Shown: piece after piece, positions 268 through 15,201 of the stretch
Layout: the number at the start of each line of letters is the position of its first letter
How positions within the stretch are numbered: position 1 is the first letter of the stretch
The notes under the pieces: generated by a model
Told to the model about the DNA's origin: nothing
Databases searched by the model: none
Seen by the model: the letters and a program-made list of their open reading frames with translations, nothing else
Virus record (IMG/VR): IMGVR_UViG_3300037502_001335
Coordinates: 1-23,419 of that record
Direction: 5' to 3' (one strand)
Length of the DNA: 23,419 nucleotides
Source: a virus
Translations under genes and position numbers: made by a program

Positions 268-282
268 CCTAACAATGTTAGG
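268..282. repeat. Palindrome copy 1 (CCTAACAATGTTAGG)
   Basis: Perfect 15-base odd palindrome. The TAA stop of the DUF3310 gene lies inside it, and it sits just before the terminator at 234-255. Confidence 0.9.
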
Positions 283-760
283 CGTGTTCAATCGCTCGGT
301 CCAGATACCAGCGGGCCTTCTCCAAGTCCTGCCTGCGGTTGCCCTTGTGGTCGGCACGAGTGATGTACTTGACCGCGTTGCCTAGATGATAGCCAAGCCC
401 TTTGGCCTCGATGAAGTCGATTGTCTCGATCCCACCGACCTTGTAGTGCGCCGGGTGGTTGACCAAGTCGGCTACGGGTTCTTCCGTCGTAGCAATCGTT
501 GGCAGCGGCTCAGACGAGGACATCACCGCGACGGTTTGCCATGTTTCGCGTGTTTTGTGGGCAAGCTCAGCGGCTGTGATTGCCCGCTGGTACGCAATTT
601 CTCCCTGCTCAGCGTCCTGTTTCAATTTTTTCATCTGCGACTTGATTGTGTAGACGTAGGGTACGCTCACGTTGAACTTGTTTGCTATCTCAGATGCTTT
701 ATCGCCTGGGTACTTTGTGACGTGTGCGCGAATTTTTGCTGCGAGTGATGTTTTAGCCAT
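278..760 (-). CDS. HTH plus DUF3310 protein
   Basis: 160 residues. The N-terminus (about 8-46) looks like a helix-turn-helix domain (ASEIANKFNVSVPYVYTIKSQMKKL). After a low-complexity linker, residues 101-157 match the DUF3310 family: NHPAHYKVGGIETIDFIEAK, then LGNAVKYITRA and DLEKARWYLDRAIE. DUF3310 is a common phage domain of uncertain biochemistry, often annotated as nucleotide-kinase-like. The fusion to an HTH is seen in other phages and could make it DNA-binding. I chose the ATG at 760 because AGGAG lies 8 bases upstream. The in-frame ATG at 766 gives an ATGA overlap with the upstream gene but sits only 2 bases from AGGAG. It is the last gene before the terminator. Confidence 0.85.
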   Translation of the reverse strand: MAKTSLAAKIRAHVTKYPGDKASEIANKFNVSVPYVYTIKSQMKKLKQDAEQGEIAYQRAITAAELAHKTRETWQTVAVMSSSEPLPTIATTEEPVADLVNHPAHYKVGGIETIDFIEAKGLGYHLGNAVKYITRADHKGNRRQDLEKARWYLDRAIEHA

Positions 761-762
761 GT

Positions 763-966
763 TCATTTCTCCTGTGTTTGGCTGTTGACGTAGTCGGTAA
801 GGATTTCTCTCATCTTGGCCTGCTTTGTCTCGGCGAAGTGCGTGGTGAAGTAGTCCATCACATCCTTCGGTAGACGCAAGCTCGTGCAAAGGAGCGCGGG
901 TTTCTTACCGGGTCCGCGCCCCTTGCGTTTCTTGATCGGTTTGAGTTCTTCAATTCCTGTAGTCAA
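763..966 (-). CDS. Small ribbon-helix-helix-like protein, TTG start
   Basis: 67 residues with a basic N-terminus (IKKRKGRGPGKK) and then LLCTSLRLPKDVMDYFTTHF plus QAKMREILTDYV, a strand-helix-helix pattern like Arc/BrnA-type ribbon-helix-helix DNA-binding proteins. The start is TTG, supported by GGAGG seven bases upstream, and it overlaps the upstream stop as TTGA. A role as a small repressor or antitoxin-like DNA binder is plausible but inferred; no toxin partner is visible next to it. Confidence 0.7.
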   Translation of the reverse strand: MTTGIEELKPIKKRKGRGPGKKPALLCTSLRLPKDVMDYFTTHFAETKQAKMREILTDYVNSQTQEK

Positions 967-1127
967 AATGGTGCCTCCTCTGCACTGTTGCGTTGCTGCA
1001 TCTTGTACTGCCTGTGCGCTTTCTCAAGCAGCTTTGGGTCCATCCTTGTGAACGGCCAATGGGTTCTCACCTTCTCTTGAAGGTCAAGCTTGCGCGGTTT
1101 TTTGGTGTCTGCACCGTCACTTTGCAC
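963..1127 (-). CDS. Hypothetical small basic protein, GTG start
   Basis: 54 residues, lysine/arginine-rich, no family recognised (KKPRKLDLQEKVRTHWPFTRMDPKLLEKAHRQYKMQQR). I chose the GTG at 1127, which has AGGG six bases upstream and an 11-base overlap with the upstream gene. A TTG seven codons earlier (1148) has no ribosome binding site. Reality is supported mainly by its place in the coupled gene train and the TTGA junction at its end. Confidence 0.6.
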   Translation of the reverse strand: MQSDGADTKKPRKLDLQEKVRTHWPFTRMDPKLLEKAHRQYKMQQRNSAEEAPF

Positions 1128-1323
1128 GGTTTTCCCTGTCTCTGGCAAGCGCCAGCGTTAAACGGTTGGGGTACTTGTTGGCCGCCATGATGCGATTGAT
1201 GTATATGCTTACGGTTCTTTTGGACAGACCAAGCTTACGCGCCACGAGGTCGGTTTCTCCAAGCTCACAAAGCACGTCAAGCAGTTGTGCCTCGCGCTCA
1301 GTCAGTAGCAGTTGTTTGGGCAT
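1117..1323 (-). CDS. LuxR/GerE-type HTH DNA-binding protein
   Basis: 68 residues that are essentially a stand-alone LuxR-type helix-turn-helix: LTEREAQLLDVLCELGETDLVARKLGLSKRTVSIYINRIM (about 7-47). The LT-x-RE-x-x-L start and the LGLSKRTVSIYI recognition-helix region fit the GerE/sigma-4-like fold. There is no receiver or ligand domain, as is common for small phage regulators. It starts one base after the TGA of the upstream gene (TGACATG); there is no strong Shine-Dalgarno, so translation probably depends on coupling. It is one candidate for the protein that reads the dispersed palindromes; that link is inference. Confidence 0.75.
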   Translation of the reverse strand: MPKQLLLTEREAQLLDVLCELGETDLVARKLGLSKRTVSIYINRIMAANKYPNRLTLALARDRENRAK

Positions 1324-1324
1324 G

Positions 1325-1585
1325 TCACTTGTTTGCAGGGCATTCGCGCCCCTGTTTGCAGTTGTTGTTGTAAGGCGGGCAAGTGGTTGATGGGGCCGCT
1401 ATTTTCCCGAGTTCTTCTGCGGCTCGTTGCATGGTGTAGTCAAACGTCCATCGGTGCTTGGGGTCAAGCCTGCACATCGCCTCATAGATGGGTTTGGCAA
1501 GGTTCCACAGTTGATCTCTCTGGCGCAGGGCACAGGCTGGCCGTTGACACCCAAAGTGGCAGGAATGGATGTCATCGTGTTTCAT
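1325..1585 (-). CDS. Hypothetical cysteine-rich small protein
   Basis: 86 residues with seven cysteines in two groups (CHFGCQRPAC near the N-terminus; CPPYNNNCKQGRECP at the C-terminus), suggesting metal binding. No family recognised. It overlaps the upstream gene by ATGA and has no good Shine-Dalgarno, so it is probably translated by re-initiation. Confidence 0.65.
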   Translation of the reverse strand: MKHDDIHSCHFGCQRPACALRQRDQLWNLAKPIYEAMCRLDPKHRWTFDYTMQRAAEELGKIAAPSTTCPPYNNNCKQGRECPANK

Positions 1586-1797
1586 TTGCTTTGTTCCCCG
1601 GCTTCGTATCCTTGTTTAAACCCATCGTCCCACGCCCGATGCCATGCTTGACACCACAGTTCGTACCAGCCCCTGCCGATGGGGAAATCAAACGGCGGCT
1701 CTTCTTTTGCAAAGTCTTTAACGTCCTTGCGCTTGATGAAGGCTTCCCACGCTTTGTCACGAGCCTTGTCGTGGATGGGTATGTCGTCGAGTCTCAT
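1582..1797 (-). CDS. Hypothetical small acidic/aromatic protein
   Basis: 71 residues, rich in Trp and charged residues (GWYELWCQAWHRAWDDGFKQGYEAG). No known domain recognised. The ATG at 1797 has GGAG seven bases upstream and an ATGA overlap with the upstream gene. Its role is unknown. Confidence 0.7.
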   Translation of the reverse strand: MRLDDIPIHDKARDKAWEAFIKRKDVKDFAKEEPPFDFPIGRGWYELWCQAWHRAWDDGFKQGYEAGEQSK

Positions 1798-4164: not shown

Positions 4165-4400
4165 TTCTTGTTTCTCCTTTTCCGGTATGGCACCATGCTT
4201 GGCATCTCTACAGTCATCTGTTCGGGTGTTGCAGCACTATGCGCTGCTGCTTTCTCTGTGTATGGCAGTGAAGGCTCAACGCCGCCCTTCCTCTTCTCGT
4301 TGACGATTCGGCTGGCCTGATAAGCCGCTCGGCGCGAAGTCTCAATGTCCTTCAGGCTGATCTGCGGCTTGTAGTTCCGCCAATCAAACGGGTCATTCAT
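4161..4400 (-). CDS. Hypothetical small protein
   Basis: 79 residues, MNDPFDWRNYKPQISLKDIETSRRAAYQASRIVNEKRK with a basic C-terminus (YRKRRNKK). No family recognised. The start at 4400 follows GGAGG at spacing 5 and forms ATGA with the upstream gene. Confidence 0.7.
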   Translation of the reverse strand: MNDPFDWRNYKPQISLKDIETSRRAAYQASRIVNEKRKGGVEPSLPYTEKAAAHSAATPEQMTVEMPSMVPYRKRRNKK

Positions 4401-4582
4401 TTGACCCTCCGCATTGCCATCCATTCGGGCTCTTTGGACTCCAGGGGCGGCGGTGCCTTTCGTAACTCACTGGGCGGCACCCAGCCGTACTTGCGCCACA
4501 GCTTTTGAACATCTGCGCCTGATGTCCACTTGAAGTCGGGATGTCCAACAGGAATCCACGGGTCTGATCTTCTTGCGTTCAT
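4397..4582 (-). CDS. Hypothetical small protein
   Basis: 61 residues: MNARRSDPWIPVGHPDFKWTSGADVQKLWRKYGWVPPSE. The 'V-x-x-x-WRKYGWVPPSE' motif is reminiscent of short phage proteins of unknown role. The start at 4582 has GGAG upstream and an ATGA overlap with the 294-aa gene; longer starts would run far into that gene. Confidence 0.7.
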   Translation of the reverse strand: MNARRSDPWIPVGHPDFKWTSGADVQKLWRKYGWVPPSELRKAPPPLESKEPEWMAMRRVK

Positions 4583-5463
4583 TTGCCTTCTCCTTGTGTT
4601 GCTGCATCTAACAGTAAAACAAAACATTCGGGGTCCACTCTGCAACCTACGCCTTGTATGACGTTGTCGTCTTCTACCAACTTGAGTAAACCGAGCTTGC
4701 CCCTCATCCACGCGGGGAGCGTAGTATCATCAAAAATTTCCACCTTGTCACGCACTTTGACAACGTAATGTACGCCCTCACGCAAAACAAGCGCACACTC
4801 CTGACTAGCAAACGCTTTCCTCGCCTGATCAATCGTGAGCATCTCAGCCTTACGTTGCTCGTATTCAGGCAGTAGGTTTTGTTTGTTGGTCGTCTTCAAG
4901 AACTCAACGAACTGCTCCCTAACACTGTTAGCAAAGATGACCGAACTGTCGCGCACGGACGAATAAAGTTCTCGAACTTTGTGCTCTTTGTCCGACTTCT
5001 GCCTATCCAACAAGCGTCTTGTTAGCTCCTCTACTTTGTCAAACCGCTCACCCGTACTCTTCGCAAAGAAGTGCTTCTTGATTGCCGCCAGAGCCTTTGT
5101 CGCATCGTGGGTGCAGTACGAACTTCTGCGCTCCCTTAGCTTCCGGAGCCTGTCGTTCGTAATCAAGAATCCATAGTCGTTGCGGAACCAATGCCACCTG
5201 ACCTCGCCTAGCTCTTCCCCATTGCAAAATATCTTGATGCTGTCAATGGTCTTCCCGTCATAGGCAAGGTCTATCACCTTAAACTTCCACGAGGGCCTGA
5301 TCGTGGCAAGCCTCACAAACAACTCGTTGTACGGAACCCGAGCCTTCAGGTCTGCTTTGGACAGAGTAACGCCATCTTTGCGGCGGTGTTCTACTAACTC
5401 AGGGGCCAGCACCACGCTGTCTAACGCGAGCATGTCCAGGGTTGTTGGGGGTAACGTCTTCAT
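4579..5463 (-). CDS. Hypothetical 294-aa phage protein
   Basis: 294 residues, no domain recognised. It is charged and probably cytoplasmic, with a helical central part (KHFFAKSTGERFDKVEELTRRLLDRQKSDKEHKVRELYSSVRDS). The start ATG at 5463 has AGGAG at spacing 5; a GTG two codons earlier overlaps the Shine-Dalgarno and is less likely. It follows the DUF3150-like gene by 9 bases and may belong to the AAA+/VWA module by position. A palindrome copy (4919-4931) lies in its coding sequence, encoding ANSV. Confidence 0.75.
   Translation of the reverse strand: MKTLPPTTLDMLALDSVVLAPELVEHRRKDGVTLSKADLKARVPYNELFVRLATIRPSWKFKVIDLAYDGKTIDSIKIFCNGEELGEVRWHWFRNDYGFLITNDRLRKLRERRSSYCTHDATKALAAIKKHFFAKSTGERFDKVEELTRRLLDRQKSDKEHKVRELYSSVRDSSVIFANSVREQFVEFLKTTNKQNLLPEYEQRKAEMLTIDQARKAFASQECALVLREGVHYVVKVRDKVEIFDDTTLPAWMRGKLGLLKLVEDDNVIQGVGCRVDPECFVLLLDAATQGEGK
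4919..4931. repeat. Palindrome copy 2 (CTAACACTGTTAG), intragenic
   Basis: Perfect 13-base odd palindrome with centre C/G inside the 294-aa gene; it encodes ANSV on the minus strand, followed by R. Confidence 0.85.
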
Positions 5464-5472
5464 CTTCACTCC

Positions 5473-6327
5473 TTAGAAATTGAACTTGTTCAAAATGTCA
5501 TCTACCTTCGACTTCAACTGCTTGCGGCAGTCGGCATCCTCTTTGATGCCCTCCATGTCTGCACCTAACATTGTTAGCTCAAGCTGACGCCGTGCCTCCT
5601 CCAACTTCGGGTCATTGGTGATGTTGAGCTTGGTGAGCAGGGAGCACAACTCCAGTGGGTTGCTGATAAGTGTGTCGTGGTAACGCTTCTTCCCGTCGTC
5701 ACCCTCCACATCTGTCAACTTCTTGGAGATGACATCCAACTCGGCGTGTAGCCTCTCCCACGGTTCACGACATGCTTCAGCCAATTTTTCGCGTTGCTGT
5801 GACTCAAACGTCACCACCAGTTCCCTCATGTCCTCGGCAGGCACATCGAGGCGAAAGTCCCCCGCCTCGGGCACAGGCTTGACCGTGCGGCGAAACCCAA
5901 ACTTGTGCTTGACCTCCTCAAGCTCCGGGTAGTCCTCTGCCTTGTACAGCCCCTGCAATGCATTGGGAGCCTCGGCCACCAGACGCGGATACTCGATGAA
6001 GAAGTTGTTGCACATGAGGTTGAACGTGTGTTCAAAGTTATTCATCGTGGTCTTGTAGTCCATGAACAACTTGGTCGGCAGCAGCCTCTCGCCCTTGTCG
6101 GCCCACGGCAGCGTGTGCTGGTTGTGATACAGCCGCGCCCGCGCCGCAAACTTCTCGATGTCTTTGCGTAGGCTCGTACCCGCAAACAGATTCTTCTTGG
6201 TCTGCGATGCCCCACGCACCGCCCCCGCGTCGATGTTCACCTTGTCGGTGATCTCTCGGTCTACCTTGCTGGCAGGCCACACGCTGATGTTCAACTCCAC
6301 TAACACTGCTGATGCGCTAATACTCAT
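5473..6327 (-). CDS. DUF3150-like protein of the AAA+/VWA module
   Basis: 284 residues. The start MSISASAVLVELNISVWPASKVDREITDKV and following KDIEKFAARARLYHNQHTLPWADKGERLLPTKLF resemble DUF3150 proteins, which occur in phages and integrative elements next to CobS/MoxR-like AAA+ ATPases and VWA proteins. I recognise the pattern but cannot confirm it without a profile search. The C-terminal half is rich in charged helices. GGAG lies upstream of the ATG, and ATGA joins it to the upstream gene. The genes for the AAA+ and VWA partners lie 3.8 and 0.7 kb upstream in the same direction. A palindrome copy (5565-5577) lies in its coding sequence, encoding LTML. Confidence 0.7.
   Translation of the reverse strand: MSISASAVLVELNISVWPASKVDREITDKVNIDAGAVRGASQTKKNLFAGTSLRKDIEKFAARARLYHNQHTLPWADKGERLLPTKLFMDYKTTMNNFEHTFNLMCNNFFIEYPRLVAEAPNALQGLYKAEDYPELEEVKHKFGFRRTVKPVPEAGDFRLDVPAEDMRELVVTFESQQREKLAEACREPWERLHAELDVISKKLTDVEGDDGKKRYHDTLISNPLELCSLLTKLNITNDPKLEEARRQLELTMLGADMEGIKEDADCRKQLKSKVDDILNKFNF
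5565..5577. repeat. Palindrome copy 3 (CTAACATTGTTAG), intragenic
   Basis: Perfect 13-base odd palindrome inside the DUF3150-like gene, read in frame as LTML. Confidence 0.9.
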
Positions 6328-6581
6328 TTCAGTTCTCCTTCAAAAGTTTCAAAGTCCCGGTGCTCCACACCGAAAAGTTTTACCGCCCCTACCACACCTA
6401 ACTTTGTTAGGTTGCGGAGTGGTTCTCCGTACACCATACTGCCTCCTAGCCCTCTGTAATAGACGGGCTGCACAAAGAACCGCCACGGCTTCCACCACAT
6501 GCGGGCAACTACGACACCCAAGACCGGGTTGCCCCAATCTCCGATGCTTGCCATATAGAAGGTTCCCGGTTGTAGCTTCAT
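6324..6581 (-). CDS. Hypothetical small aromatic-rich protein
   Basis: 85 residues: MKLQPGTFYMASIGDWGNPVLGVVVARMWWKPWRFFVQPVYYRGLGGSMVYGE. Rich in Trp, Phe and Tyr, but no clear transmembrane segment. No family recognised. Start and upstream stop overlap as TGATG; AGGGAAG lies just upstream. Its last codons (FETFEGELK) repeat those around the end of the region upstream of its start (FETFEGRL), suggesting a duplicated translation-initiation segment. Confidence 0.7.
   Translation of the reverse strand: MKLQPGTFYMASIGDWGNPVLGVVVARMWWKPWRFFVQPVYYRGLGGSMVYGEPLRNLTKLGVVGAVKLFGVEHRDFETFEGELK
6398..6410. repeat. Palindrome copy 4 (imperfect centre), intragenic
   Basis: CTAAC-TTT-GTTAG: both arms are intact (CCTAAC/GTTAGG with flanks) but the central ANT is changed. 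It encodes LTKL in the 85-aa gene. Confidence 0.75.
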
Positions 6582-6793
6582 CAGTCTTCCCTCAAAAGTT
6601 TCAAAAACCCAATCGCCCCGGCACGGGTCGGTGCTCGGGCTAATACTTCTACGCGGGTTTCGCCAAAGCCGTTTGGGATGTACTCTTTCTTCAGCACCAG
6701 CCAATCGTCTGTGGTCTTGCATATGCCGTACTCAACGGCATACAGTCGGTCAGGATTCCCGAACCACTCGGCTGGGTCTCGGTTGATAGCCAT
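6581..6793 (-). CDS. Hypothetical 70-aa protein
   Basis: MAINRDPAEWFGNPDRLYAVEYGICKTTDDWLVLKKEYIPNGFGETRVEVLARAPTRAGAIGFLKLLRED. Mixed alpha/beta prediction by eye; no family recognised. The start at 6793 follows AGGT and lies 6 bases after the TAG of the upstream gene. Confidence 0.7.
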   Translation of the reverse strand: MAINRDPAEWFGNPDRLYAVEYGICKTTDDWLVLKKEYIPNGFGETRVEVLARAPTRAGAIGFLKLLRED

Positions 6794-7052: not shown

Positions 7053-8297
7053 TCAGTCCTTAATATGAATCGTCTTACCGTTGCTTGCGGTAACACCCTC
7101 TGGGCCGTTAACAATGCACCACATAGTAGGCGCAGTCCAATCCGAACCCCAGTCGTTGCCCACGTACCCGTCCGTGAGAATGATGATGCACTCCGGTTCA
7201 ATCTTCTTCTCCTTCAGGTACGTAGATACACATGATGGGCTCGTGCCTCCCCCACCCTTGGGCTTGGTCGAGCTAACAATGTTATGTACATCACCCTCAC
7301 CGTACTGCTCGTGCGCTGCCACCTCACAGTCCCAATAGAGCAAGTCCACCTGCTGCGGGTTGACCTCCTCGGCGATACCCTTGACCTCGGCAAGAAACTC
7401 AGACAACTCTTGGTCGCCAATGCTTCCTGATGTGTCGATAGCCACAACCAAGTGCCCCACCTTCTCACCGATCAGGCTCGGCATATACACACCCGAACTC
7501 AGGAACCTGCGGTTGACCCTGCGCCAGCTACTCGCATCCTTGGCTCGGCAGACAGTCTTGACGAACTCACGCAGCACCTCACGCCAGTTGACCTTGGGCT
7601 CCAACATCTCTTGAAGCATTCGGTCGAGGCCACCTGCGCCACTACCTGCAACCTTCTGGTGAGCGATCTGCCCCTGCCTTATGGCTTGGTCAATGTCACG
7701 GGCAAGCTGCTTCTTTTCTTCCTCGCTCATACCCTTGGCATCGCCCCAATCGTGCTCGTCGAGGCCAGCACTCCCACCGCCGCCATCACCATCGCCCCCC
7801 TCATCACCGCCGCCGCCTCCGCCTCCGCCTCCATCCTTTTGCTCTTGCTTGAGAATGTCGAACACCTGCTTGGCGTTCATGCCACGGAACCTCTCGTCGA
7901 TCAGGCCCATCGGCTTGCCCTTCATGGGCCCGTCAGCAAACCTAGGCATTGAGATAACCTGCTCACTCGGGTCAAGGTCGCGCAGCATCAGGTTAATCAC
8001 GTAGTCACAGGCGGCGTTGGCCAGACGGTGATCCTCATCATGCAGCTTGTTCCACGTAGTCAGATGCCGAAACATCTTGTGCCCAGCCTCGTGGGCCACC
8101 ACAAAGTTAAGCTCGGCCTCCTTTAGCTGCTTGACGAAAGCCCGACCGAACCTATCGTCCCGGCCATTGGTCACTGCTGTTGGGACGCGGTCATCCACAC
8201 TTGTCTTGCCCACCATCAAGATGCCCGAGAGCAGGGCAAACTTGGGGTTACGCATCAGGCTGATCTTGGCCTTCTGCAACTTGCGTTCTTCGTTCAT
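7053..8297 (-). CDS. DUF2201-type metallopeptidase/VWA protein (CobT/ViaA-like partner)
   Basis: 414 residues with two parts. The N-terminal part holds FVVAHEAGHKMFRH with an HExxH zinc-peptidase motif (HEAGH, 69-73), as in DUF2201 N-terminal domains. A very glycine-rich linker (about 156-178) leads to a C-terminal VWA-like domain with MIDAS-type residues DTSGS (288-292), a GGGGT loop (348-352) and LTDGY (374-378). Such proteins usually work with a MoxR-type AAA+ ATPase as a metal-dependent chaperone or insertase; the matching ATPase is at 9054-10130. The ATG at 8297 has AGGAG at spacing 7, and a palindrome copy runs directly into that AGGAG. A further palindrome (7273-7285) is inside the gene. 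Confidence 0.85.
   Translation of the reverse strand: MNEERKLQKAKISLMRNPKFALLSGILMVGKTSVDDRVPTAVTNGRDDRFGRAFVKQLKEAELNFVVAHEAGHKMFRHLTTWNKLHDEDHRLANAACDYVINLMLRDLDPSEQVISMPRFADGPMKGKPMGLIDERFRGMNAKQVFDILKQEQKDGGGGGGGGGDEGGDGDGGGGSAGLDEHDWGDAKGMSEEEKKQLARDIDQAIRQGQIAHQKVAGSGAGGLDRMLQEMLEPKVNWREVLREFVKTVCRAKDASSWRRVNRRFLSSGVYMPSLIGEKVGHLVVAIDTSGSIGDQELSEFLAEVKGIAEEVNPQQVDLLYWDCEVAAHEQYGEGDVHNIVSSTKPKGGGGTSPSCVSTYLKEKKIEPECIIILTDGYVGNDWGSDWTAPTMWCIVNGPEGVTASNGKTIHIKD
7273..7285. repeat. Palindrome copy 5 (CTAACAATGTTAT), intragenic
   Basis: One arm ends in TTAT rather than TTAG. It is read in frame as parts of HNIVS in the VWA domain. Confidence 0.75.
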
Positions 8298-8306
8298 GTC
8301 GTTACT

Positions 8307-8321
8307 CCTAACATTGTTATG
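8307..8321. repeat. Palindrome copy 6, fused to the Shine-Dalgarno of the VWA gene
   Basis: CCTAACATTGTTATG. Read on the minus strand, the terminal AGG of the palindrome is the first part of the AGGAG ribosome binding site of the VWA gene (start 8297). Confidence 0.85.
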
Positions 8322-8351
8322 CCCATCATTCAATCAACAGTTTCAAAAGAA

Positions 8352-9053: not shown

Positions 9054-10130
9054 TCACAACAGGTCTTGGTTTTTTGCAACCCACTCGGCGAACGCCTTGG
9101 CGCTGAACGCGATTGACTGCTTGCTCGGGGTACGTGCGATGTTGATTGCAAACACCGCCTGCCACTCGGGGTCGAACCGCTCCAGATACTCCATGAATGG
9201 GTTGATGGTGTCCTTCGTAACCCTAGAGATTGCGCCGAACACCACGATGGCACACGCACCAGGGCTCGACGGCAGCTTGGTGTTCTTCGGGTCTTTGATC
9301 GTCGATTCCCACGTAGGCAGTTGGTCAGCGAACTCGATGTACGCCTGCATGTCACGCGCCGCAGCCTCACCCACTGCGCCGGAGAGCGCAGCGATTACCG
9401 AGTCGGCGTCGTTGAGCTTCCTCGTCCTAACAATGTTCGATGCAGTCTCCAACGAGCGCGGGGAAACAAACGCAGTCTGCGACTTCTTCGGGTTGTAGAT
9501 GTACGGGTTGTCCCCCTGCGCCGCGTCTGTGTACGATGCAAGGGCGTGTGGGTATTGGTTGACCCACGCAAGCACCTCGGCCTCGATACCCTTGTTGATA
9601 CCCCACTCGATCCACTCCTCGGCAGTGGGCTTGCTGATCGTCACCGGGACCAGCCGGTTACGGCTATGTGCTTTGAGGTTGTCACCTACGCCGTCGGTTG
9701 TGAGGTTGCCCGTGAGAAACACGATGGTCTGCCGGGGCCCGTCCTTGGGCAGTGGGTTGTCACCGAGTCGAGGGTTGGCCTTCTCAAGCATCGGGTGCAG
9801 CATGTTCTTCACCGGGTCCGCGCCCTTGGTGAACTCGTCGAGCATGATCAGCAGGGGCTTGCCCTCATGAATCTTGAACCGGGCATTGGGGTAGTAGCGG
9901 GTTGTCTTGGTGTCGTGGTCGATCACCGGCATTGCGATGTCGCCCAGGTCCATGTTGGGTACGTCGATATACGCATACTCGTACCCCAGATCACCAGCGA
10001 TGTTCTCCAGCAGGGAACTCTTGCCGATACCCGGCTCGCCTTGCAACAAGAACCGCGTCTCCGGGTTGGTCTTGATCAAGGTGGCTGCCTGCTTGAGCGT
10101 GATGCGCTTACCGAAAGATACTTCTGACAT
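9054..10130 (-). CDS. MoxR/CobS-like AAA+ ATPase
   Basis: 358 residues. Walker A GEPGIGKSS (31-39), Walker B LLIMLDEF (93-100), sensor-1 region FLTGN (138-142) and a likely arginine-finger segment SRNRL (156-160) define an AAA+ ATPase of the MoxR/CobS/RavA branch. These ATPases form rings that remodel proteins together with VWA partners; the partner here is at 7053-8297. It is the first gene behind the consensus promoter at 10225-10253, with a leader of about 85 bases carrying a palindrome copy. GAGG lies 8 bases before the ATG. A further imperfect palindrome (9427-9439) is in the coding sequence. Which protein it remodels in infection is unknown. Confidence 0.9.
   Translation of the reverse strand: MSEVSFGKRITLKQAATLIKTNPETRFLLQGEPGIGKSSLLENIAGDLGYEYAYIDVPNMDLGDIAMPVIDHDTKTTRYYPNARFKIHEGKPLLIMLDEFTKGADPVKNMLHPMLEKANPRLGDNPLPKDGPRQTIVFLTGNLTTDGVGDNLKAHSRNRLVPVTISKPTAEEWIEWGINKGIEAEVLAWVNQYPHALASYTDAAQGDNPYIYNPKKSQTAFVSPRSLETASNIVRTRKLNDADSVIAALSGAVGEAAARDMQAYIEFADQLPTWESTIKDPKNTKLPSSPGACAIVVFGAISRVTKDTINPFMEYLERFDPEWQAVFAINIARTPSKQSIAFSAKAFAEWVAKNQDLL
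9427..9439. repeat. Palindrome copy 7 (degenerate arm), intragenic
   Basis: CTAACAATGTTCG: one arm is degraded to GTTCG. It encodes NIVR in the AAA+ gene. Confidence 0.6.
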
Positions 10131-10151: not shown

Positions 10152-10166
10152 CCTAACACTGTTAGG
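10152..10166. repeat. Palindrome copy 8, in the leader of the AAA+ gene
   Basis: CCTAACACTGTTAGG, perfect arms, 21 bases upstream of the ATG of the AAA+ gene and inside its predicted mRNA leader. Confidence 0.9.
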
Positions 10167-10224: not shown

Positions 10225-10253
10225 AGTATACCACACTTACTTGACATTGTCAA
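10225..10253 (-). promoter_or_regulatory. Strong sigma70 promoter for the AAA+ operon, with palindrome over the -35
   Basis: Read leftward: TTGACA (10248-10253), a 17-base spacer and TATACT (10225-10230), close to the full consensus. The -35 lies inside a perfect odd palindrome, CTTGACATTGTCAAG (10240-10254; 17 bases with flanking A/T), which would be a natural repressor site. The palindrome also places a TTGACA on the plus strand, followed at 18 bases by TATCAT, so weak rightward transcription is possible. Confidence 0.85.
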
Positions 10254-10266: not shown

Positions 10267-11259
10267 TCATCCTTTCCGAATGGGTGCCACATACTGCGCG
10301 TACTTCAGGTTAGGCACCTGCCCGACCTCTGTCGTGTACGCCTCGAACGCCTCCTCCGCGTGCTTGCACATGATGACCTTCGTAAACAGTGTCGTTACGG
10401 CCGGTGCCCATATCGCCCGGTACTTGTCTCTCTCGTACTTGATGTTGTTCGCCAGCGGAGAGCAGGTAAGCCACAACGCCGCCTTGTAGAACTTCTCGTG
10501 GTCGTCGCTGCGTATCAACTCTACGAACTCGTCCGAGCGCTCACTGTAGAAGGGGGCTTTGCGCTCCGATATGTCATGCGCCCCAGGCAGCGGGATGTAC
10601 TCCGCGTGGGCATCCCTACCCAGCACAGGATTACCCCGAGGGCCCCGAGGCATCATAGAAACTAACCGCACCCCATCTCCTTTGCGCACGCCGAACGCTT
10701 GTGCGTACTCGTCTATCCCCACTTGGAACGTCTTTACCTCCGGGCTAGTGCGCAGTTTGAGGAACGCCTTGAGGTAGTCGGCGAACTGCTTGTATCGCTT
10801 CCTAACACTGTTAGCCCCCTTGCGGTTAACACGGTATGCGGTGTACGTCTTGGGGTTGAGCGCGACCCACTTGCCCTCTGCGTTTCGCTCAAAGAAATAC
10901 TCACCATGAGGCTCCATGATGTAGCTCTGCCCCCCGATGTGTACCTTCGTGAACGGACCCGAGGATGACGACGATATGTGCAGCACCCGGGACATGAAGC
11001 TGCGGGTCGTGATCGAACTGTAGCCCCCCATCATCAAGCGCATACGCCCGTTAGGGTAGAACGTCACCACGGGAATGGAATAGCACATCAACTCCACACT
11101 GAGGGCATCACCCATGCGGATCGAATACATGTTGTGATCTCTGCGTCGGCCAAGCGGGCGCGTGCCTCTGCCCCTGATCGGTTCGATCTTGTCATGAAAT
11201 GCCTTGGCCTCGGCGTAGGCCCGAAACCCCGGCACATATTGAACTGCTACGTTTCCCAT
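10267..11259 (-). CDS. Hypothetical 330-aa phage protein
   Basis: 330 residues starting MGNVAVQYVPGFRAYAEAKAFHDKIEPIRGRGTRPLGRRRDHNMYSIR. Mostly beta-strand in the N-terminal half, basic helical stretch around KRYKQFADYLKAFLK, and a conserved-looking C-terminus (LWLTCSPLANNIKYERDKY). Proteins like this occur in other phage early regions but no function is established. ATG 11259 has GGAGG at spacing 5; ATG 11262 is too close. It overlaps the stop of the 27-aa microgene (ATGATG), so the two are probably coupled. A palindrome copy (10802-10814) lies inside, encoding ANSV. Confidence 0.75.
   Translation of the reverse strand: MGNVAVQYVPGFRAYAEAKAFHDKIEPIRGRGTRPLGRRRDHNMYSIRMGDALSVELMCYSIPVVTFYPNGRMRLMMGGYSSITTRSFMSRVLHISSSSSGPFTKVHIGGQSYIMEPHGEYFFERNAEGKWVALNPKTYTAYRVNRKGANSVRKRYKQFADYLKAFLKLRTSPEVKTFQVGIDEYAQAFGVRKGDGVRLVSMMPRGPRGNPVLGRDAHAEYIPLPGAHDISERKAPFYSERSDEFVELIRSDDHEKFYKAALWLTCSPLANNIKYERDKYRAIWAPAVTTLFTKVIMCKHAEEAFEAYTTEVGQVPNLKYAQYVAPIRKG
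10801..10815. repeat. Palindrome copy 9 (CCTAACACTGTTAGC), intragenic
   Basis: Core CTAACACTGTTAG at 10802-10814 inside the 330-aa gene; it encodes ANSV, the same peptide as copy 2 in an unrelated gene. Confidence 0.85.
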
Positions 11260-11342
11260 CATGTCCTCCAAACAAAAACATCTAACATTAAGACAATAAC
11301 CGCAACGGTTATGGCTAACCAAAAAACGGGGTCGATTTTCAT
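11259..11342 (-). CDS. 27-aa single-membrane-span microprotein
   Basis: MKIDPVFWLAITVAVIVLMLDVFVWRT: two short charged ends around one hydrophobic helix (about 6-24), typical of a small inner-membrane peptide. Its ATG overlaps the upstream TGA as ATGA (11339-11342) and its TGA overlaps the two candidate ATGs of the 330-aa gene, so it fits exactly into the coupled train. A G-rich stretch (GGATGGGGG) lies about 10 bases upstream. Its 3' end carries the GGAGG of the next gene. An inverted repeat ATAACCG-CAA-CGGTTAT (11296-11312) and a half-copy of the dispersed palindrome lie inside. Function unknown; an antimicrobial, anti-defence or lysis-timing membrane peptide are all possible but speculative. 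Confidence 0.7.
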   Translation of the reverse strand: MKIDPVFWLAITVAVIVLMLDVFVWRT

Positions 11343-11784: not shown

Positions 11785-11972
11785 TTACTCTTCTCCTTCA
11801 CATCAATCTCCTTCACAACAAACGGCAGGTGACCGGCGTGCAGCGTGGCGAGATACGCCTTCACCTCGGCCAGAGTATTGAACTCCTTGCGGGTCAGCAG
11901 GGCAGGGTATGGGGGCACAGTCGGGTCGAACCCAGTGGTGTAGCCCATCACAAAGTACTTCTCGGTTTTCAT
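11781..11972 (-). CDS. Hypothetical 63-aa protein
   Basis: MKTEKYFVMGYTTGFDPTVPPYPALLTRKEFNTLAEVKAYLATLHAGHLPFVVKEIDVKEKSK. Looks like a small beta-alpha-beta domain; no family recognised. AGAAGGAG precedes the ATG, and a palindrome copy (11986-11998) ends just before that Shine-Dalgarno. Confidence 0.7.
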   Translation of the reverse strand: MKTEKYFVMGYTTGFDPTVPPYPALLTRKEFNTLAEVKAYLATLHAGHLPFVVKEIDVKEKSK

Positions 11973-12340
11973 TTGCTTACTCCTTCTAACATTGTTAGTT
12001 CATCGGGGACATCGACCTCGTCTCCAAGTTCACCCATCACATAGCAGCGCATGGCTGCGATCAGGGGCGTGGGGCCGCAAACAATTCCCCAAAACTCAGT
12101 TTCAGTTTCACCCTCCTCTCCTGCCTCCCACTGCTGGTGCGGCAGTCTGTTCCTCACTTTCAACAGACCAATTCCCTTACGATCAATGATCGGCCCGCCA
12201 AACGCCCACTCGGTCGAATACGGGTAACGCACCACGATGTCCCTTATGCTTGGCTTGCCCTCGTATGCGCGAGGGGTTTTAGCAAGGATCACCGCGTAGT
12301 TAAGCGCGTGGCCTGTCAGTTCACTCGTCTTGATCTTCAT
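11969..12340 (-). CDS. ninX-like: NinX/DUF2591-like protein
   Basis: 123 residues: MKIKTSELTGHALNYAVILAKTP, then YSTEWAFGGPIIDRKGIGL, then CGPTPLIAAMRCYVMGELGDEVDVPDEL. The TSELTG-x-AL-x-x-AV start, the S-x-x-W-x-x-GGPII-x-x-x-I box and the GPTPLIAAMRCYV-x-x-x-LG-x-x-V-x-VP end are the hallmarks of the phage NinX (DUF2591) family. Its function is unknown even in lambdoid phages. Its C-terminus (LTML) is encoded by a palindrome copy that also borders the ribosome binding site of the next gene. ATGA overlap with the upstream gene. Confidence 0.85.
   Translation of the reverse strand: MKIKTSELTGHALNYAVILAKTPRAYEGKPSIRDIVVRYPYSTEWAFGGPIIDRKGIGLLKVRNRLPHQQWEAGEEGETETEFWGIVCGPTPLIAAMRCYVMGELGDEVDVPDELTMLEGVSK
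11986..11998. repeat. Palindrome copy 10, next to the Shine-Dalgarno of the 63-aa gene
   Basis: CTAACATTGTTAG. It encodes LTML near the NinX-like C-terminus and is directly followed, on the minus strand, by AAGGAG of the next gene (start 11972). Confidence 0.9.
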
Positions 12341-12633
12341 CCTTCGCTCCTTCTAAACAACAACTCCACGCGGTACACCGGCCCGCGCAGGCCGGTAATG
12401 TCGTCAACCCCGAACTCGTCATAGCCGTCGGTGTCCACCGACTCGTGGGCAAACAGCCACAGGTTGTCGTCGGCATCACGCCAGGATTGCGTCACAGTGC
12501 TTACCCACTCGTCGATCTGCTCCTGCTCACCGTCCTCCAAGCCCGACGCATCACCATTGATCAGATAGGGCAGGGCCCATGCACCTACGCTGTACTCGAT
12601 CTGCTCGAAAGGTATCTGGGTTGTGTTTTTCAT
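12337..12633 (-). CDS. Small conserved phage/plasmid protein (INGDASGL type)
   Basis: 98 residues: MKNTTQIPFEQIEYSVGAWALPYLINGDASGLEDGEQEQIDEWVSTV...HESVDTDGYDEFGVDDITGLRGPVYRVELLFRR. The 'YLINGD-x-SGL-x-x-x-E-x-x-x-ID-x-W' block is a known pattern of short proteins in phages and plasmids (possibly DUF6926); function unknown. It has GGAGG upstream with a palindrome copy directly before it, and ATGA overlaps. Confidence 0.75.
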   Translation of the reverse strand: MKNTTQIPFEQIEYSVGAWALPYLINGDASGLEDGEQEQIDEWVSTVTQSWRDADDNLWLFAHESVDTDGYDEFGVDDITGLRGPVYRVELLFRRSEG

Positions 12634-12935
12634 TTCGTACCCTCCTCTAACATTGTTAGGCTCTCTGCTCTGGGTTGTGTGTCCTTGATGTTCAGGCCCG
12701 CCTTCGTGCGGCGCATCACGCTGAGCACCTCTCCACCATCACGCTCGGCAACGATGGCCAGCCCATACTGACCGAGCACGATCCGCACGGCCATGTTCTT
12801 ACGCGCACCGCGTACCGACGCTGCGTAGCCCATGCTTGCGGGTTTCTTACCGGAGGCATCTGCCTCGGTGAAGTATTGGGTCAGGAAGGGGCGCTTGTGC
12901 CGCCCGTGGGTTTGGTTTTTGTTTCGTGTGCTCAT
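12630..12935 (-). CDS. Hypothetical 101-aa basic protein
   Basis: MSTRNKNQTHGRHKRPFLTQYFTEADASGKKPASMGYAASVRGARKNMAVRIVLGQYGLAIVAERDGGEVLSVMRRTKAGLNIKDTQPRAESLTMLEEGTK. Basic N-terminal tail, then a region with a possible alpha-beta fold (AASVRGARKNMAVRIVLGQYGLAIVAER). No family recognised. Its last residues LTMLEEGTK are encoded by a palindrome plus the next gene's ribosome binding site. GGAGG upstream, ATGA overlap. Confidence 0.7.
   Translation of the reverse strand: MSTRNKNQTHGRHKRPFLTQYFTEADASGKKPASMGYAASVRGARKNMAVRIVLGQYGLAIVAERDGGEVLSVMRRTKAGLNIKDTQPRAESLTMLEEGTK
12647..12659. repeat. Palindrome copy 11, abutting GGAGG of the 98-aa gene
   Basis: CTAACATTGTTAG. On the minus strand it runs straight into AGGAGG (start 12633) while encoding LTML of the upstream gene. 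Confidence 0.9.
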
Positions 12936-13144
12936 TTCGTACCTCCGTTTAACTGCACCACGTCGATGTGGTTCTTCATCCTTGACATGGTTACACCTAC
13001 TGAGATATTCAGTAGTTGGGCAAACGCATACGCTGCGTTGGCCTTGGCCTTGGCCGGTGTTGGGGCCATCGTGTAGTGGCGCAGCACTTCGCCTCGGTTG
13101 TTGAAATGCACCACGTATTTGTTGGTTTGGTCTTTGGCTAACAT
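12932..13144 (-). CDS. Hypothetical 70-aa protein; start codon inside a palindrome
   Basis: MLAKDQTNKYVVHFNNRGEVLRHYTMAPTPAKAKANAAYAFAQLLNISVGVTMSRMKNHIDVVQLNGGTK. A strand region followed by an alanine-rich helix; no family recognised. The ATG is the centre of a palindrome copy (13138-13150), with GAGGG seven bases upstream. The upstream gene's TAA is also in the palindrome (TAACAATG), two bases before the ATG. A longer in-frame reading would overlap the zinc-ribbon gene without a better binding site. Confidence 0.75.
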   Translation of the reverse strand: MLAKDQTNKYVVHFNNRGEVLRHYTMAPTPAKAKANAAYAFAQLLNISVGVTMSRMKNHIDVVQLNGGTK

Positions 13145-13150
13145 TGTTAG
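13138..13150. repeat. Palindrome copy 12, spanning a stop and a start codon
   Basis: CTAACATTGTTAG. On the minus strand it contains the TAA of the 76-aa gene and the ATG of the 70-aa gene. Confidence 0.9.
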
Positions 13151-13377
13151 GCCCTCAGTTGCTTCTGGTTGGTCTGCTTGAGGGTCAGGGGCGCAGAGTC
13201 TGCGGTCACGAACTGATAACACCCCTTGCCGTATTCTTGGATCACTGTCCAGCTTGCCCGTGCCTCACGGGCCTGCGCCTCACCGCAGGGCATACACACT
13301 CGGTAGCCCAGTTGCCATCGCTCGCTGCTCACATCGTCGCCGCAGCAGGCGCACTCTTGCCAGTCTAGGTTTCTCAT
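13147..13377 (-). CDS. Zinc-ribbon-like 76-aa protein, first gene of its operon
   Basis: MRNLDWQECACCGDDVSSERWQLGYRVCMPCGEAQAREARASWTVIQEYGKGCYQFVTADSAPLTLKQTNQKQLRA. Two CxxC pairs (CACC at 9-12 and CMPC at 28-31) mark a small zinc ribbon, followed by a segment typical of short phage zinc-ribbon proteins. GGAG seven bases upstream of the ATG. It is the first gene after the promoter at 13465-13493, with a palindrome copy in its leader. Confidence 0.75.
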   Translation of the reverse strand: MRNLDWQECACCGDDVSSERWQLGYRVCMPCGEAQAREARASWTVIQEYGKGCYQFVTADSAPLTLKQTNQKQLRA

Positions 13378-13400: not shown

Positions 13401-13415
13401 CCTAACAATGTTAGG
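13401..13415. repeat. Palindrome copy 13, in the leader of the zinc-ribbon gene
   Basis: CCTAACAATGTTAGG, perfect, between the promoter at 13465-13493 and the Shine-Dalgarno of the gene starting at 13377. Confidence 0.9.
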
Positions 13416-13493: not shown

Positions 13494-13505
13494 GTGTTTT
13501 GGTCA

Positions 13506-13587: not shown

Positions 13588-13591
13588 TACC

Positions 13592-13604
13592 CTAACAATG
13601 TTAG
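13592..13604. repeat. Palindrome copy 14, noncoding
   Basis: CTAACAATGTTAG between the G-tract cluster and the AT-rich stretch of the candidate origin, about 100 bases upstream of the leftward promoter. Confidence 0.9.
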
Positions 13605-13664
13605 AAAGTGAAAAATCATTGTCAACCACTATTTTGTGTTTGTAACAAAAGAAATTCAATGAAA

Positions 13665-13693
13665 TCAACAAGTTAGGAAGGCAAAGTTATAAT
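13665..13693 (+). promoter_or_regulatory. Possible rightward promoter into the repeat region
   Basis: TCAACA (13665-13670), 17-base spacer, TATAAT (13688-13693). The -10 is perfect, the -35 matches 4 of 6. There is no gene downstream, so if real it would make an untranslated RNA or primer across the CGTAAC repeats. Confidence 0.35.
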
Positions 13694-13919
13694 GTAATAA
13701 AGTTATTCGATTTTTTTAATGTGGTCCCCCCCAGGGTTTGACAGTGTGGTGCGAATTGCGCTTGCCGTGACCCGCCCTCTGCGCATCTCGGGCGGCGCTT
13801 CATAATTTCCATTTTTTCCGTAACATTTAACATTGCTTATAAATCAAGGACTTACAGAGGGGTGTTGTGTAACAGATACACTTTTTCCGTAACTTTACCC
13901 CGAAATTCCGTAACACTAC

Positions 13920-13946
13920 CCCCGCACAGGGAACTGGTGGCGGTCC
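13920..13946 (+). repeat. 27-base direct repeat, copy A
   Basis: Begins CCCCGCACAGGGAACTGGTG and ends GGTCC; it matches 14162-14188 with one difference (C/T near the end). The two copies bracket the central iteron pairs. Confidence 0.85.
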
Positions 13947-13962
13947 CGGAAGCTATAACCCT

Positions 13963-13996
13963 ACTGGGATGTCAACTTAAAAAAACGCGTAACTTT
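13963..13996 (+). repeat. 34-base direct repeat, copy A
   Basis: Begins ACTGGGATGTCAACTTAAAA and ends GCGTAACTTT; identical to 14026-14059, a 63-base period, and includes one CGTAAC repeat at its end. Confidence 0.9.
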
Positions 13997-14025
13997 ATCA
14001 CAACGTAACTTTACCCAATAACCAC

Positions 14026-14059
14026 ACTGGGATGTCAACTTAAAAAAACGCGTAACTTT
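14026..14059 (+). repeat. 34-base direct repeat, copy B
   Basis: Identical to 13963-13996; it runs directly into palindrome copy 15. Confidence 0.9.
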
Positions 14060-14081
14060 CTAACAATGTAACAATGTTAGG
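14060..14081. repeat. Palindrome copy 15 with an extra half-site
   Basis: A half-site CTAACAATG is directly followed by a nearly full palindrome (GTAACAATGTTAG at 14068-14080), giving three half-sites in 22 bases inside the iteron region. Confidence 0.8.
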
Positions 14082-14161
14082 TCCGGGCCAAATGTAAAGA
14101 CCCACTAACTCACTCAACTTTACAAAACGCGTAACTTTATCACAACGTAACTTAATGCTAT

Positions 14162-14188
14162 CCCCGCACAGGGAACTGGTGGTGGTCC
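14162..14188 (+). repeat. 27-base direct repeat, copy B
   Basis: Matches 13920-13946 except for one base; it marks the right edge of the iteron region just before the terminators. Confidence 0.85.
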
Positions 14189-14212
14189 TACGCTTAGGAA
14201 CGTAGGGACAAC

Positions 14213-14241
14213 AAAAAAGCCACCTAACAATGTTAGGTGGC
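14213..14241 (-). terminator. Terminator whose stem is an extended palindrome copy 16
   Basis: The palindrome is lengthened to an 11-bp stem (GCCACCTAACA/TGTTAGGTGGC, 14219-14241) and, read leftward, followed by six T (complement of 14213-14218). It therefore works as a rho-independent terminator built from the dispersed element. It is the second of two in tandem. Confidence 0.8.
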
Positions 14242-14249
14242 GTAGAAAC

Positions 14250-14273
14250 AAAAAAGCCCGCCGAGTGGCGGGC
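14250..14273 (-). terminator. Rho-independent terminator of the 15038-14292 operon
   Basis: Read leftward: a 7-bp GC stem GCCCGCC/GGCGGGC (14256-14273), 4-base loop, then six T. It lies 19 bases after the stop of the 71-aa gene. With the next terminator it isolates the candidate origin from transcription coming from the right. Confidence 0.9.
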
Positions 14274-14291
14274 TGGTCGGAGCGGGGAGGG

Positions 14292-14507
14292 TCAGGCGGT
14301 TTCCCAGACACATTCGGTGTATGTGAACCGAGAGTCCAAGTGCATCCCTTCCGAGAGATTAGGGTTTGCCATTTTGAACGCTAGAAGAACGTTCTTTCGT
14401 TCTGCATAGTCGCATTGAATGCTTGCCAGAGTTACCCGTTTTTCACTGCCATTGGGCAGGGTGACGAACGTGCAAATTGCCAGTGTGCCGAAAAAACTTT
14501 CCTTCAT
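14292..14507 (-). CDS. Hypothetical 71-aa protein
   Basis: MKESFFGTLAICTFVTLPNGSEKRVTLASIQCDYAERKNVLLAFKMANPNLSEGMHLDSRFTYTECVWETA. Beta-rich start followed by a helix; no family recognised. GGAG lies 8 bases before the ATG at 14507. It is the last gene before tandem terminators. Confidence 0.7.
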   Translation of the reverse strand: MKESFFGTLAICTFVTLPNGSEKRVTLASIQCDYAERKNVLLAFKMANPNLSEGMHLDSRFTYTECVWETA

Positions 14508-14528
14508 GGTGCATTCTCCAAGGGTTGA

Positions 14529-15038
14529 TTACAGGGTTGCCAGATCGATACCCAGGGCAGCCAGGGCACTGCCGATATAGGTGTGAGCATTACGCTCTTT
14601 GTCGGACATGGATTCGGCACGCCGACCGGCTTTGAACAACAGGGTCAATTCTTCGACATATCGGAGGGTCAGCGACCGATTAGGCTGTGCGCCGCTCGAT
14701 TCACCTTCACCTTCACCCTCGCCGGTAGCGGCCTCGCCCTTTGGCCCTTCGCAGTGCTCTTGTGCATACTTGCGAACCCGTGCCCACACTGTTGAGGGGT
14801 TGGTATGCTTCGCTGCTTTCAAGACCGTGAAAAGGTCTTGTTTCTCTTTGTGGACAGCCTTTGCATCTTCGCTCGTATCCCGATGCTCTACGAGATACCA
14901 CTCGGCAGGAAGAACACTGCAAAGCGCCTCCGCATACTTTCTTTCCGCACCGTAGGCACGGACGTTAGCCTCTGCAACCTCCTGGCGCAACACCGCAATG
15001 GACGAAACCACCGCACCGACAACAGTCATATCTGACAT
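14529..15038 (-). CDS. Hypothetical 169-aa protein with charged helical core
   Basis: Starts MSDMTVVGAVVSSIAVLRQEVAEANVRAYGAERKYAEALCSVLPAEWYLVEHRD. The core (SEDAKAVHKEKQDLFTVLKAAKHTNPSTVWARVRKYAQEH) is helical; a Gly/Glu-rich linker (about 105-118) separates it from a C-terminal helix (SLTLRYVEELTLLFKAGRRAE). Similar two-part small proteins occur in phages of Gram-negative hosts near the start of early transcription; function unknown. GGAG at spacing 8 with palindrome copy 17 directly upstream. First gene of the operon from the promoter at 15121-15150; a longer in-frame reading to 15278 runs through that promoter and is rejected. Confidence 0.75.
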   Translation of the reverse strand: MSDMTVVGAVVSSIAVLRQEVAEANVRAYGAERKYAEALCSVLPAEWYLVEHRDTSEDAKAVHKEKQDLFTVLKAAKHTNPSTVWARVRKYAQEHCEGPKGEAATGEGEGEGESSGAQPNRSLTLRYVEELTLLFKAGRRAESMSDKERNAHTYIGSALAALGIDLATL

Positions 15039-15051
15039 AACTCTAACTCCT

Positions 15052-15064
15052 CTAACATTGTTAG
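15052..15064. repeat. Palindrome copy 17, abutting AGGAG of the 169-aa gene
   Basis: CTAACATTGTTAG. On the minus strand it is directly followed by AGGAG (start 15038), the same 18-base arrangement as copy 11. Confidence 0.9.
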
Positions 15065-15120
15065 CCCTTTCAATCGGTGGGTAACTAACCGATGCAACCG
15101 ATCTTCGCTTGCATGAGTGT

Positions 15121-15150
15121 ATTATACCATAAAAAACGTATGAAAGCCAA
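15121..15150 (-). promoter_or_regulatory. Sigma70 promoter for the 169-aa and 71-aa genes
   Basis: Read leftward: TTGGCT (15145-15150), 18-base spacer, perfect TATAAT (15121-15126). Leader of about 75 bases with palindrome copy 17; copy 18 lies upstream of the -35. Confidence 0.7.
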
Positions 15151-15184
15151 CATAGCGTAGAAAATAATTCGAGAGTGGGAATGG

Positions 15185-15201
15185 GCATAACAATGTTATG
15201 C
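15185..15201. repeat. Palindrome copy 18 (GCATAACAATGTTATGC)
   Basis: A 17-base perfect palindrome with the ATAACANTGTTAT version of the arms, about 35 bases upstream of the leftward -35 box. Confidence 0.85.

Follow-up and report, generated by a model that had tools for sequence, protein, structure and literature searches.

Why is one half of a phage fragment strewn with copies of a single short palindrome, and what reads them? The question is raised by IMG/VR virus record IMGVR_UViG_3300037502_001335, a stretch of 23,419 bases (the window) that is the entire IMG/VR fragment, so that a "half" here is half of a fragment. Its palindromic word, CTAACANTGTTAG, had been proposed in an original prediction as the target of a phage DNA binder in a network resembling operators or stoperators. 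Comparison of relatives supports this proposal and points to one protein, the product of the first gene of the leftward block, here called F, as the most likely reader. On balance, we favor a model in which the sites are double-stranded DNA binding sites of F, and F acts as a dimeric roadblock silencer of the early block and of its own gene. A nucleoid-like reader, which the original prediction had also allowed, ranks in our analysis below a transcription repressor.

Searching the window with CTAACANTGTTAG at up to two mismatches returns 19 raw matches, the one at 14060 overlapping that at 14068, and hence 18 distinct sites; 12 are exact, five have one mismatch, and the one at 15187 has two. 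All 18 coordinates given in the original prediction are correct, and the low chance expectation that it claimed was borne out: 100 dinucleotide-preserving shuffles of the window contain a mean of 0.46 matches (maximum 3) at the same threshold. The reported confinement to the leftward half holds as well. No match occurs at 15200-23419, and the network-bearing relatives of 47-66 kb also mostly keep their sites together, clustered, among the matches listed, in one block of ~10-22 kb (in G009 this block runs across the ends of the record, and in G011 a single one-mismatch match lies apart from it). The left part of the window forms a leftward block that encodes a MoxR-like ATPase and a VWA/metallopeptidase-like protein next to numerous small open reading frames (ORFs), and the right part carries a terminase and further rightward ORFs; we infer the labels "early" for the former and "late" for the latter from this gene layout. 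No near match to the window was found among 50,697 phage records.

Relatives comprised 160 viral loci found with MoxR and TerL queries, and a second viral scan with the F subfamily typical of spacing-2 loci (defined below) returned 80 loci, several on contigs already in the set. Locus counts are redundant, as several loci are pieces of one contig. In 2.24 Mb, there are 667 exact copies of the arms CTAAC-N3-GTTAG and 917 copies at up to one mismatch (9 and 10 of these from the window's own four pieces), against 59 for a reversed-arm control scored at the same stringency. De novo palindrome counts revealed that loci without the window word often carry a relative of it. In these versions the half-sites CTAACA/TGTTAG are spaced by 1, 2, or 3 bp, the longer forms being CTAACA-NN-TGTTAG (14 bp) and CTAACA-NNN-TGTTAG (15 bp), or the arms are changed (CTGACA-NN-TGTCAG, CTCACA-N-TGTGAG, ATAACA-NN-TGTTAT, and, in L223, GTAACA-NN). 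Spacing 0 is represented by one divergent case, L119, with three sites only. Among 167 classed sequences, 111 carry one version, 5 carry two, and 51 fall below both thresholds, the last including many TerL loci that show late genes only, plus named phages.

The original prediction had expected related phages to keep the sites, and 79 of the 80 MoxR loci carry three or more sites of one version or another. The remaining locus, L025 (10,163 bases, with a MoxR of 85% identity), lacks every version listed above; a different palindrome, CTTATA-NN-TATAAG, occurs in it three times. In HTVC023P, HTVC027P, 023Pt_psg01, and phage DSL-LC04, searched over their first 50 kb, no palindrome with 6-base arms occurs more than three times. 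The carriers of the network are a mostly uncultivated phage group.

Which gene changes together with the version of the site? The window ORF 14529-15278 (likely start 15038), which encodes F, is found in 48 spacing-1, 6 unclassed, 2 spacing-2, and 2 spacing-3 loci; for comparison, MoxR is found in 57 spacing-1, 37 spacing-2, and 3 spacing-3 loci. Spacing-2 loci have a different gene in F's place, and profile searches unite both as one family, to which the name F is extended. In pairs of loci with 75-90% MoxR identity, F proteins are 44.8% identical within the same class (n=320) and 18.9% identical between classes (n=426), a gap of 25.9 points. The same comparison gives gaps of -8.2 (an RHH-like ORF, 763-966) to +7.7 points (ORF 13147-13377, near F) for 17 other families, and 5-point bins of MoxR identity repeat the class gap of F, with a VWA control that is nearly flat. 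The test covered 18 window families, F and the 17 others, each with at least 6 members in both classes; 20 families with fewer than 6 members in a class and window ORFs without homologues were not usable. F's own BLAST list was among those 20, and the profile-based F set was used instead. As judged from these identities, F is the only one of the 18 shared families tested that clearly covaries with site version, and it is the best candidate for the reader.

The original prediction had directed attention to the recognizable helix-turn-helix (HTH) and ribbon-helix-helix (RHH) proteins of the phage, among which the reader most likely does not lie: neither the RHH-like ORF 763-966 nor the HTH+DUF3310 ORF covaries with class (-8.2 and -1.7 points). 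The LuxR-type HTH ORF 1117-1323, with zero homologues among the loci compared, was also rejected as reader. The RHH-like ORF is present in both classes and has weak matches to BrnA-type antitoxins and to phrog_4692.

A host protein might read the sites instead, with site versions mirroring different hosts. The MoxR query found no relative in GTDB genomes, and the TerL query found 10 contigs whose titles name unrelated phyla, so that no host can be named. Two of these contigs, L267 and L270, have no sites in their loci, and their whole genomes contain 0 and 6 loose matches, below controls of 5 and 11. A host reader, however, gives no reason for the covariation of F with version, which is absent in 17 other families, and we regard it as very improbable.

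F and the sites also tend to occur together, which lends weak support to the link. The set consisted of 27 records, including G013 and one earlier-examined record, and most of the F-less ones are late-gene fragments. Six contain F, and five of them have sites: L119 (3), L153 (11), L107, L098, and L128 (2 within 8 kb). The sixth, L152, is a fragment cut inside F. The 21 F-less records comprise 18 with no match, two with one, and one bacterial genome with six (control 11). In the 61-kb TerL relative L125 (record G013), F was not detected and only three scattered matches at up to one mismatch were found, one of them exact, with zero spacing-2 matches and no network. One locus, L085 (7301-9051), has two F genes near each other.

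Within F, one residue follows spacing closely. For the residue count, 179 matches were reduced to 116 proteins, 18 of them without a clear class; we left out repeats, 3 sequences under 140 aa, and 5 that lack a nearly invariant tryptophan (W) motif, namely L075 and L095 (both spacing-3), L153 (CTCACA), L119, and L137. The residue five positions before this W (W-5; N80 and W85 in the window F) is N in 40/40 spacing-1 proteins, and in 56 spacing-2 proteins it is T in 50, S in 2, V in 2, and N in 2. Even inside the spacing-2-type subfamily, N is present in 5/5 spacing-1 members (L013, L234, L235, L247, L249) versus 0/54 of the others, which ranks the W-5 column first of 161 (Fisher p 2e-7, with kinship not corrected). 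The second-ranked column has a like pattern, with S in 4/5 versus 0/54 and in 28/35 spacing-1 proteins of the other subfamily. In the structural model of the window F (pLDDT 74.8, pTM 0.42), N80 lies directly before helix 81-97, which is possibly the second helix of a helix-turn-helix.

These patterns lead us to a more tentative proposal, that half-site spacing (0 to 3 bp) serves as a lock-and-key code. Lineages might rewrite dozens of sites together with F, and the silencer would thereby be self-specific without lysogeny. The relatives form a natural series in which the half-site stays constant and the spacing changes, so that the way protein-DNA specificity evolves can be tested directly, and the W-5 residue at the helix start is the first swap candidate for specificity. 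The network is readily recognized, and with a candidate reader at hand, sequence alone suffices to assign phages of this group to specificity groups.

F resembles little in the libraries searched. With 60 members compared with Pfam, PHROGs, and NCBIfam, and with PDB sequences, there was no convincing match. The best Pfam hit is CagZ (E 0.0062, 1/60 members), and weak PHROGs matches are to phrog_21283 (2/60, E 0.0037) and phrog_8240 (1/60). A profile search of PDB sequences with F found no repressor. Foldseek at E <=0.001 found nothing in the PDB for both F models or in BFVD for the window model, a result that does not show a new fold. The best VIA-align Z scores are 5.8 for the spacing-2 F model and 4.0 for the window F model, and this similarity may merely reflect a common helical arrangement.

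Where the sites lie suggests what F does. Promoters were found by consensus only, which gave 219 distinct strong promoter-like sequences on the sense strand of the early block; 160 of these have a site at -80 to +150 (the antisense-strand figure is 4/34). Sites most commonly start at +40 to +49, and none starts between -50 and +19. Once near-copies are collapsed, 63 promoter-like sequences remain; a site lies at +20..+79 in 32 of them, versus 8.9% of random positions, and over the promoter core (-45..+10) in 1 of them, versus 9.3%. An exception to core avoidance occurs in the window, where the promoter-like sequence 13598-13625 is overlapped by a site. Core avoidance appears to fit a roadblock better than a promoter-occluding repressor. 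Spacing-1 and spacing-2 loci together provide 1290 distinct contexts of the site; in 293 of them a Shine-Dalgarno sequence (SD) and start codon follow the site, versus 7.4% of random positions. F is itself preceded by a site within 150 nt in 45/61 cases, and the F site of the window (15052-15064) lies ~50 bp downstream of F's inferred start of transcription (promoter-like sequence 15121-15150).

Site positions around the MoxR gene follow class as well. A leader site of the class's own spacing occurs in 26/31 spacing-1, 30/31 spacing-2, 2/2 spacing-3, and 2/2 CTGACA genes. Among full-length genes, an in-gene site 380 bases before the stop is found in 31/31 spacing-1 versus 0/31 spacing-2 cases, and a site 0-30 bases after the stop is found in 22/31 spacing-2 versus 9/31 spacing-1 cases. 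L013, with its spacing-2-type F bearing N, has spacing-1 site positions.

We propose that F would be produced first in infection and then accumulate, binding as a dimer with one subunit per TAACA half-site and occupying its sites at roughly one per 0.6 kb. Bound F could halt RNA polymerase both shortly after it initiates and while it elongates, silencing the F gene and the early block and leaving the late rightward genes free. Distinct site versions would prevent the F of one lineage from acting on the genome of another.

The same layout invites the suggestion that F reads the sites for DNA architecture, replication, or packaging, as a nucleoid- or partition-like protein, and not for transcription. 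Intersite intervals are more even than random (median 570 bp, coefficient of variation 0.73), sites also fall within genes and in a repeat-rich region, most lack a strong promoter-like sequence just upstream, and 1 of 60 F proteins weakly matches the nucleoid protein GapR (E 0.003). The 13-bp odd palindrome matS serves chromosome organization, which we count on this side. An architectural role does not account for the preference for promoter positions +20..+79, the avoidance of cores, or the enrichment of sites before SD and start codons, and we consider it rather unlikely.

Are the sites read as DNA or as RNA? Folded as RNA hairpins, copies in leaders and at gene ends could control translation or termination. 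Stems can form, many sites lie 5' of an SD, five T occur in the 12 bases after 46/1290 of them, and one terminator-like stem is present in the window, where the copy that the original prediction placed in a terminator indeed sits in a genuine stem with a T-run (14219-14241). The spacing-2 center also has an unexplained sense-strand bias (AA 257 versus TT 78). One-mismatch sites, however, mostly change the outer base (C->A, or G->T) or the center-adjacent A->T (or T->A), in either half-site, and G-U-type changes account for just 4/142 at spacing 1 and 10/296 at spacing 2 (14/438 overall). The A and T next to the center, which would be loop bases, are conserved, and Rfam has no match in the window. 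We set the hairpin aside as highly unlikely because the mismatch pattern lacks a G-U preference, and this pattern would instead fit double-stranded DNA. The spacing-1 center base is A or T in 367/380 exact copies (sense strand A 205, T 162). CTAAC and GTTAG resemble the core ends of integron attC sites; an attC-like reading was dropped, as the sites lack a long variable stem and occur inside genes.

F as a roadblock silencer raises the further question of whether it maintains a prophage. F could confer immunity as the repressor of a temperate phage or phage-plasmid, and the network could be a true stoperator system that silences the prophage. The anatomy is like that of mycobacteriophage L5 as far as the accounts cited below describe it: many sites in transcribed DNA, a leader site at the reader gene, and specificity groups. 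Matches to tyrosine integrase (PF00589), serine recombinase (PF00239), and ParA (PF13614) were absent from all 21 records of 47-66 kb, which are possibly incomplete; controls for these searches were positive in 14, 10, and 14 of 14. In the window, moreover, F heads the early block and does not form a separate repressor unit. The absence of these matches makes lytic early shut-off or exclusion of like phages likelier than prophage maintenance, and we judge a temperate role for F to be unlikely.

Several observations weigh against F as a roadblock silencer whose specificity follows spacing. L111 and L124 have N at W-5 yet spacing 2, as do both CTGACA-NN F proteins. The residue link is backed by 3-4 independent pairs, a number with which a phylogenetic sign test cannot become significant, and the models are middling (pTM 0.42 for the window F; pTM 0.54 and pLDDT 79.9 for a spacing-2 F). 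Tree counts of class changes (MoxR 6, TerL 10, F 5-6) separate F from other genes weakly, and it is for this reason that the identity-matched pair test was needed. Other genes are biased in presence by class: ORF 11969-12340 (12 spacing-1 versus 0 spacing-2 loci) and ORF 4397-4711 (14 versus 1), both found in a minority of spacing-1 loci, as well as ORF 10267-11322 (49 and 13 loci). The strongest competitor to F is a spacing-2 gene, L030:8499-8978, which lies between F and MoxR in 23 spacing-2 versus 2 spacing-1 loci. Five phages (L065, L061, L107, L187, and L200) carry two site versions with one detectable F each; perhaps they were caught during a change of specificity, or a second F lies in the missing part. 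As for placement, 31/63 collapsed promoter-like sequences lack a site at +20..+79, a strong promoter-like sequence lies 20-89 bp upstream of only 151/1290 sites, and 16/61 F genes lack a site in the 150 nt upstream.

How the 18 sites are distributed over the window can be followed from F leftward, with sites found by word match and carrying no strand. The F gene (14529..15038, minus strand, start inferred) encodes 169 aa (MSDMTVVGAVV...) and is first in the leftward early block. Its leader has an exact site immediately 5' of AGGAG (15052..15064). Its promoter-like sequence, TTGGCT-N18-TATAAT (15121..15150, minus strand, consensus match only), is preceded upstream by the two-mismatch site ATAACAATGTTAT (15187..15199). 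Beyond F, an exact site lies within the terminator-like stem (14224..14236), followed by the T-run, and a one-mismatch site (14068..14080) with its overlapping two-mismatch copy (14060-14072) lies in repeat-rich DNA with no called gene. This DNA belongs to a region between F and the remaining early block (13880-14160) with direct repeats containing CGTAACTTTA words, a possible origin candidate. The exact site at 13592..13604 overlaps the second hexamer of the promoter-like TTGACA-N16-TAACAT (13598-13625). Further exact sites lie in the leader of ORF 13147-13377 (13402..13414), over a minus-strand in-frame ATG that is a possible start of the ORF ending at 12932 (13138..13150), at the 3' ends of ORF 12630-12935 (12647..12659) and ORF 11969-12340 (11986..11998), each 5' of the next gene's SD, and within ORF 10267-11322 (10802..10814).

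The MoxR-like AAA ATPase gene that served as our yardstick (9054..10130, minus strand; PF07728, PF00004, phrog_1297) has an upstream promoter-like TTGACA-N17-TATACT (10225..10253, minus strand, consensus match only). An exact leader site (10153..10165) lies ~50 bp downstream of the inferred start, and a one-mismatch site lies within the gene (9427..9439), its position of -380 from the stop kept in relatives. Upstream of MoxR, a related dyad, TTGACATTGTCAA (10241-10253), overlaps the -35 hexamer of the promoter-like sequence. The VWA/metallopeptidase-like gene (7053..8333, minus strand; DUF2201 by Pfam) has a one-mismatch site 5' of its SD and probable start (8308..8320) and another within the gene (7273..7285), which most spacing-1 relatives also carry, 220 to 236 bases before the stop. 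The remaining copies are a one-mismatch site within ORF 6324-6722 (6398..6410), exact sites within ORF 5473-6327 (5565..5577) and ORF 4579-5469 (4919..4931), and an exact site over the stop codon of the HTH+DUF3310 gene (269..281), just ahead of a terminator-like stem (238-257).

How does this network compare with known systems? The layout of CTAACANTGTTAG is close to those of matS (GTGACRNYGTCAC) and tetO (CTATCANTGATAG), both 13-bp odd palindromes with a free center. The TetR family is absent from the Pfam matches of 60 F members, with TetR chains appearing in Foldseek only at E >=1.5, and at the Pfam level the MatP family is absent from the matches of both F and the RHH-like ORF 763-966. 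T7 Gp5.7 is described as a small phage protein that represses initiation from host RNA polymerase promoters. Compared by description, F would likewise be a small DNA-binding shut-off protein in a lytic phage; the description of Gp5.7 consulted mentions no dispersed site network.

The same network layout is found in Synechococcus phage MinM2 (OQ594354; L167, L170), whose 65 kb genome contains 37 copies (up to two mismatches) of GGTTCAG-N-CTGAACC and has VWA-like and MoxR genes annotated. Of the 23 sites in its leftward block, 18 precede a gene start by 1-90 nt, 12 of these by 18-29 nt and many by about 22 nt. MinM2 differs in the sequence of its site and in having 14/37 sites in rightward genes; no F is detectable in it, and its first leftward gene is not recognizably related. 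The Pag-Yong1 and Pra-JY27 records are 65,014 bases each, as is that of MinM2. No description of our network or of that in MinM2 appeared among the matches listed in the open-licence literature. Of 19 papers there that contain one of five strings of site letters, the ten listed have the 10-base string alone, and one of these ten concerns P2-like Burkholderia phages.

The stoperator systems known to us are all in temperate actinophages. In the cited accounts of Cluster A mycobacteriophages, L5 and TipsytheTRex have more than 20 dispersed 13-bp repressor sites, most not associated with promoters, site versions vary with the repressor from one subcluster to another, and a site near the repressor gene has been proposed to serve autoregulation (PMC6550527, PMC9283540). 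The L5 sites are described as asymmetric, with an orientation that follows transcription, and as bound by a monomeric two-domain repressor (PMC6550527, PMC9283540). Judged against these accounts, our network shares many sites dispersed in transcribed phage DNA (18 in the window, with binding by F inferred), site versions matched to a candidate reader, and a leader site at the reader gene. It differs from L5 in that its sites are palindromes whose versions differ in half-site spacing. L5 has an operator in its early promoter; our sites seem to avoid promoter cores (1/63 of consensus promoters), although 13598-13625 is overlapped. L5 is temperate, whereas no lysogeny genes were found in the 21 long, possibly incomplete records. 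The L5 repressor, which when bound halts elongation and confers immunity, combines an HTH with a stoperator domain; the F profile finds no repressor in PDB sequences, and a relation in fold alone may exist. We therefore file the network as one that would work like Cluster A stoperators without their site asymmetry or lysogeny, a variant and not a member of that system. If our model is correct, the F family, so far unrecognized by the libraries searched, may provide a superinfection-exclusion or early-shut-off code among lytic phages. This in turn would suggest that dispersed roadblock repression, of which the Cluster A stoperators are an example, has more than one origin and is also of use in lytic growth.

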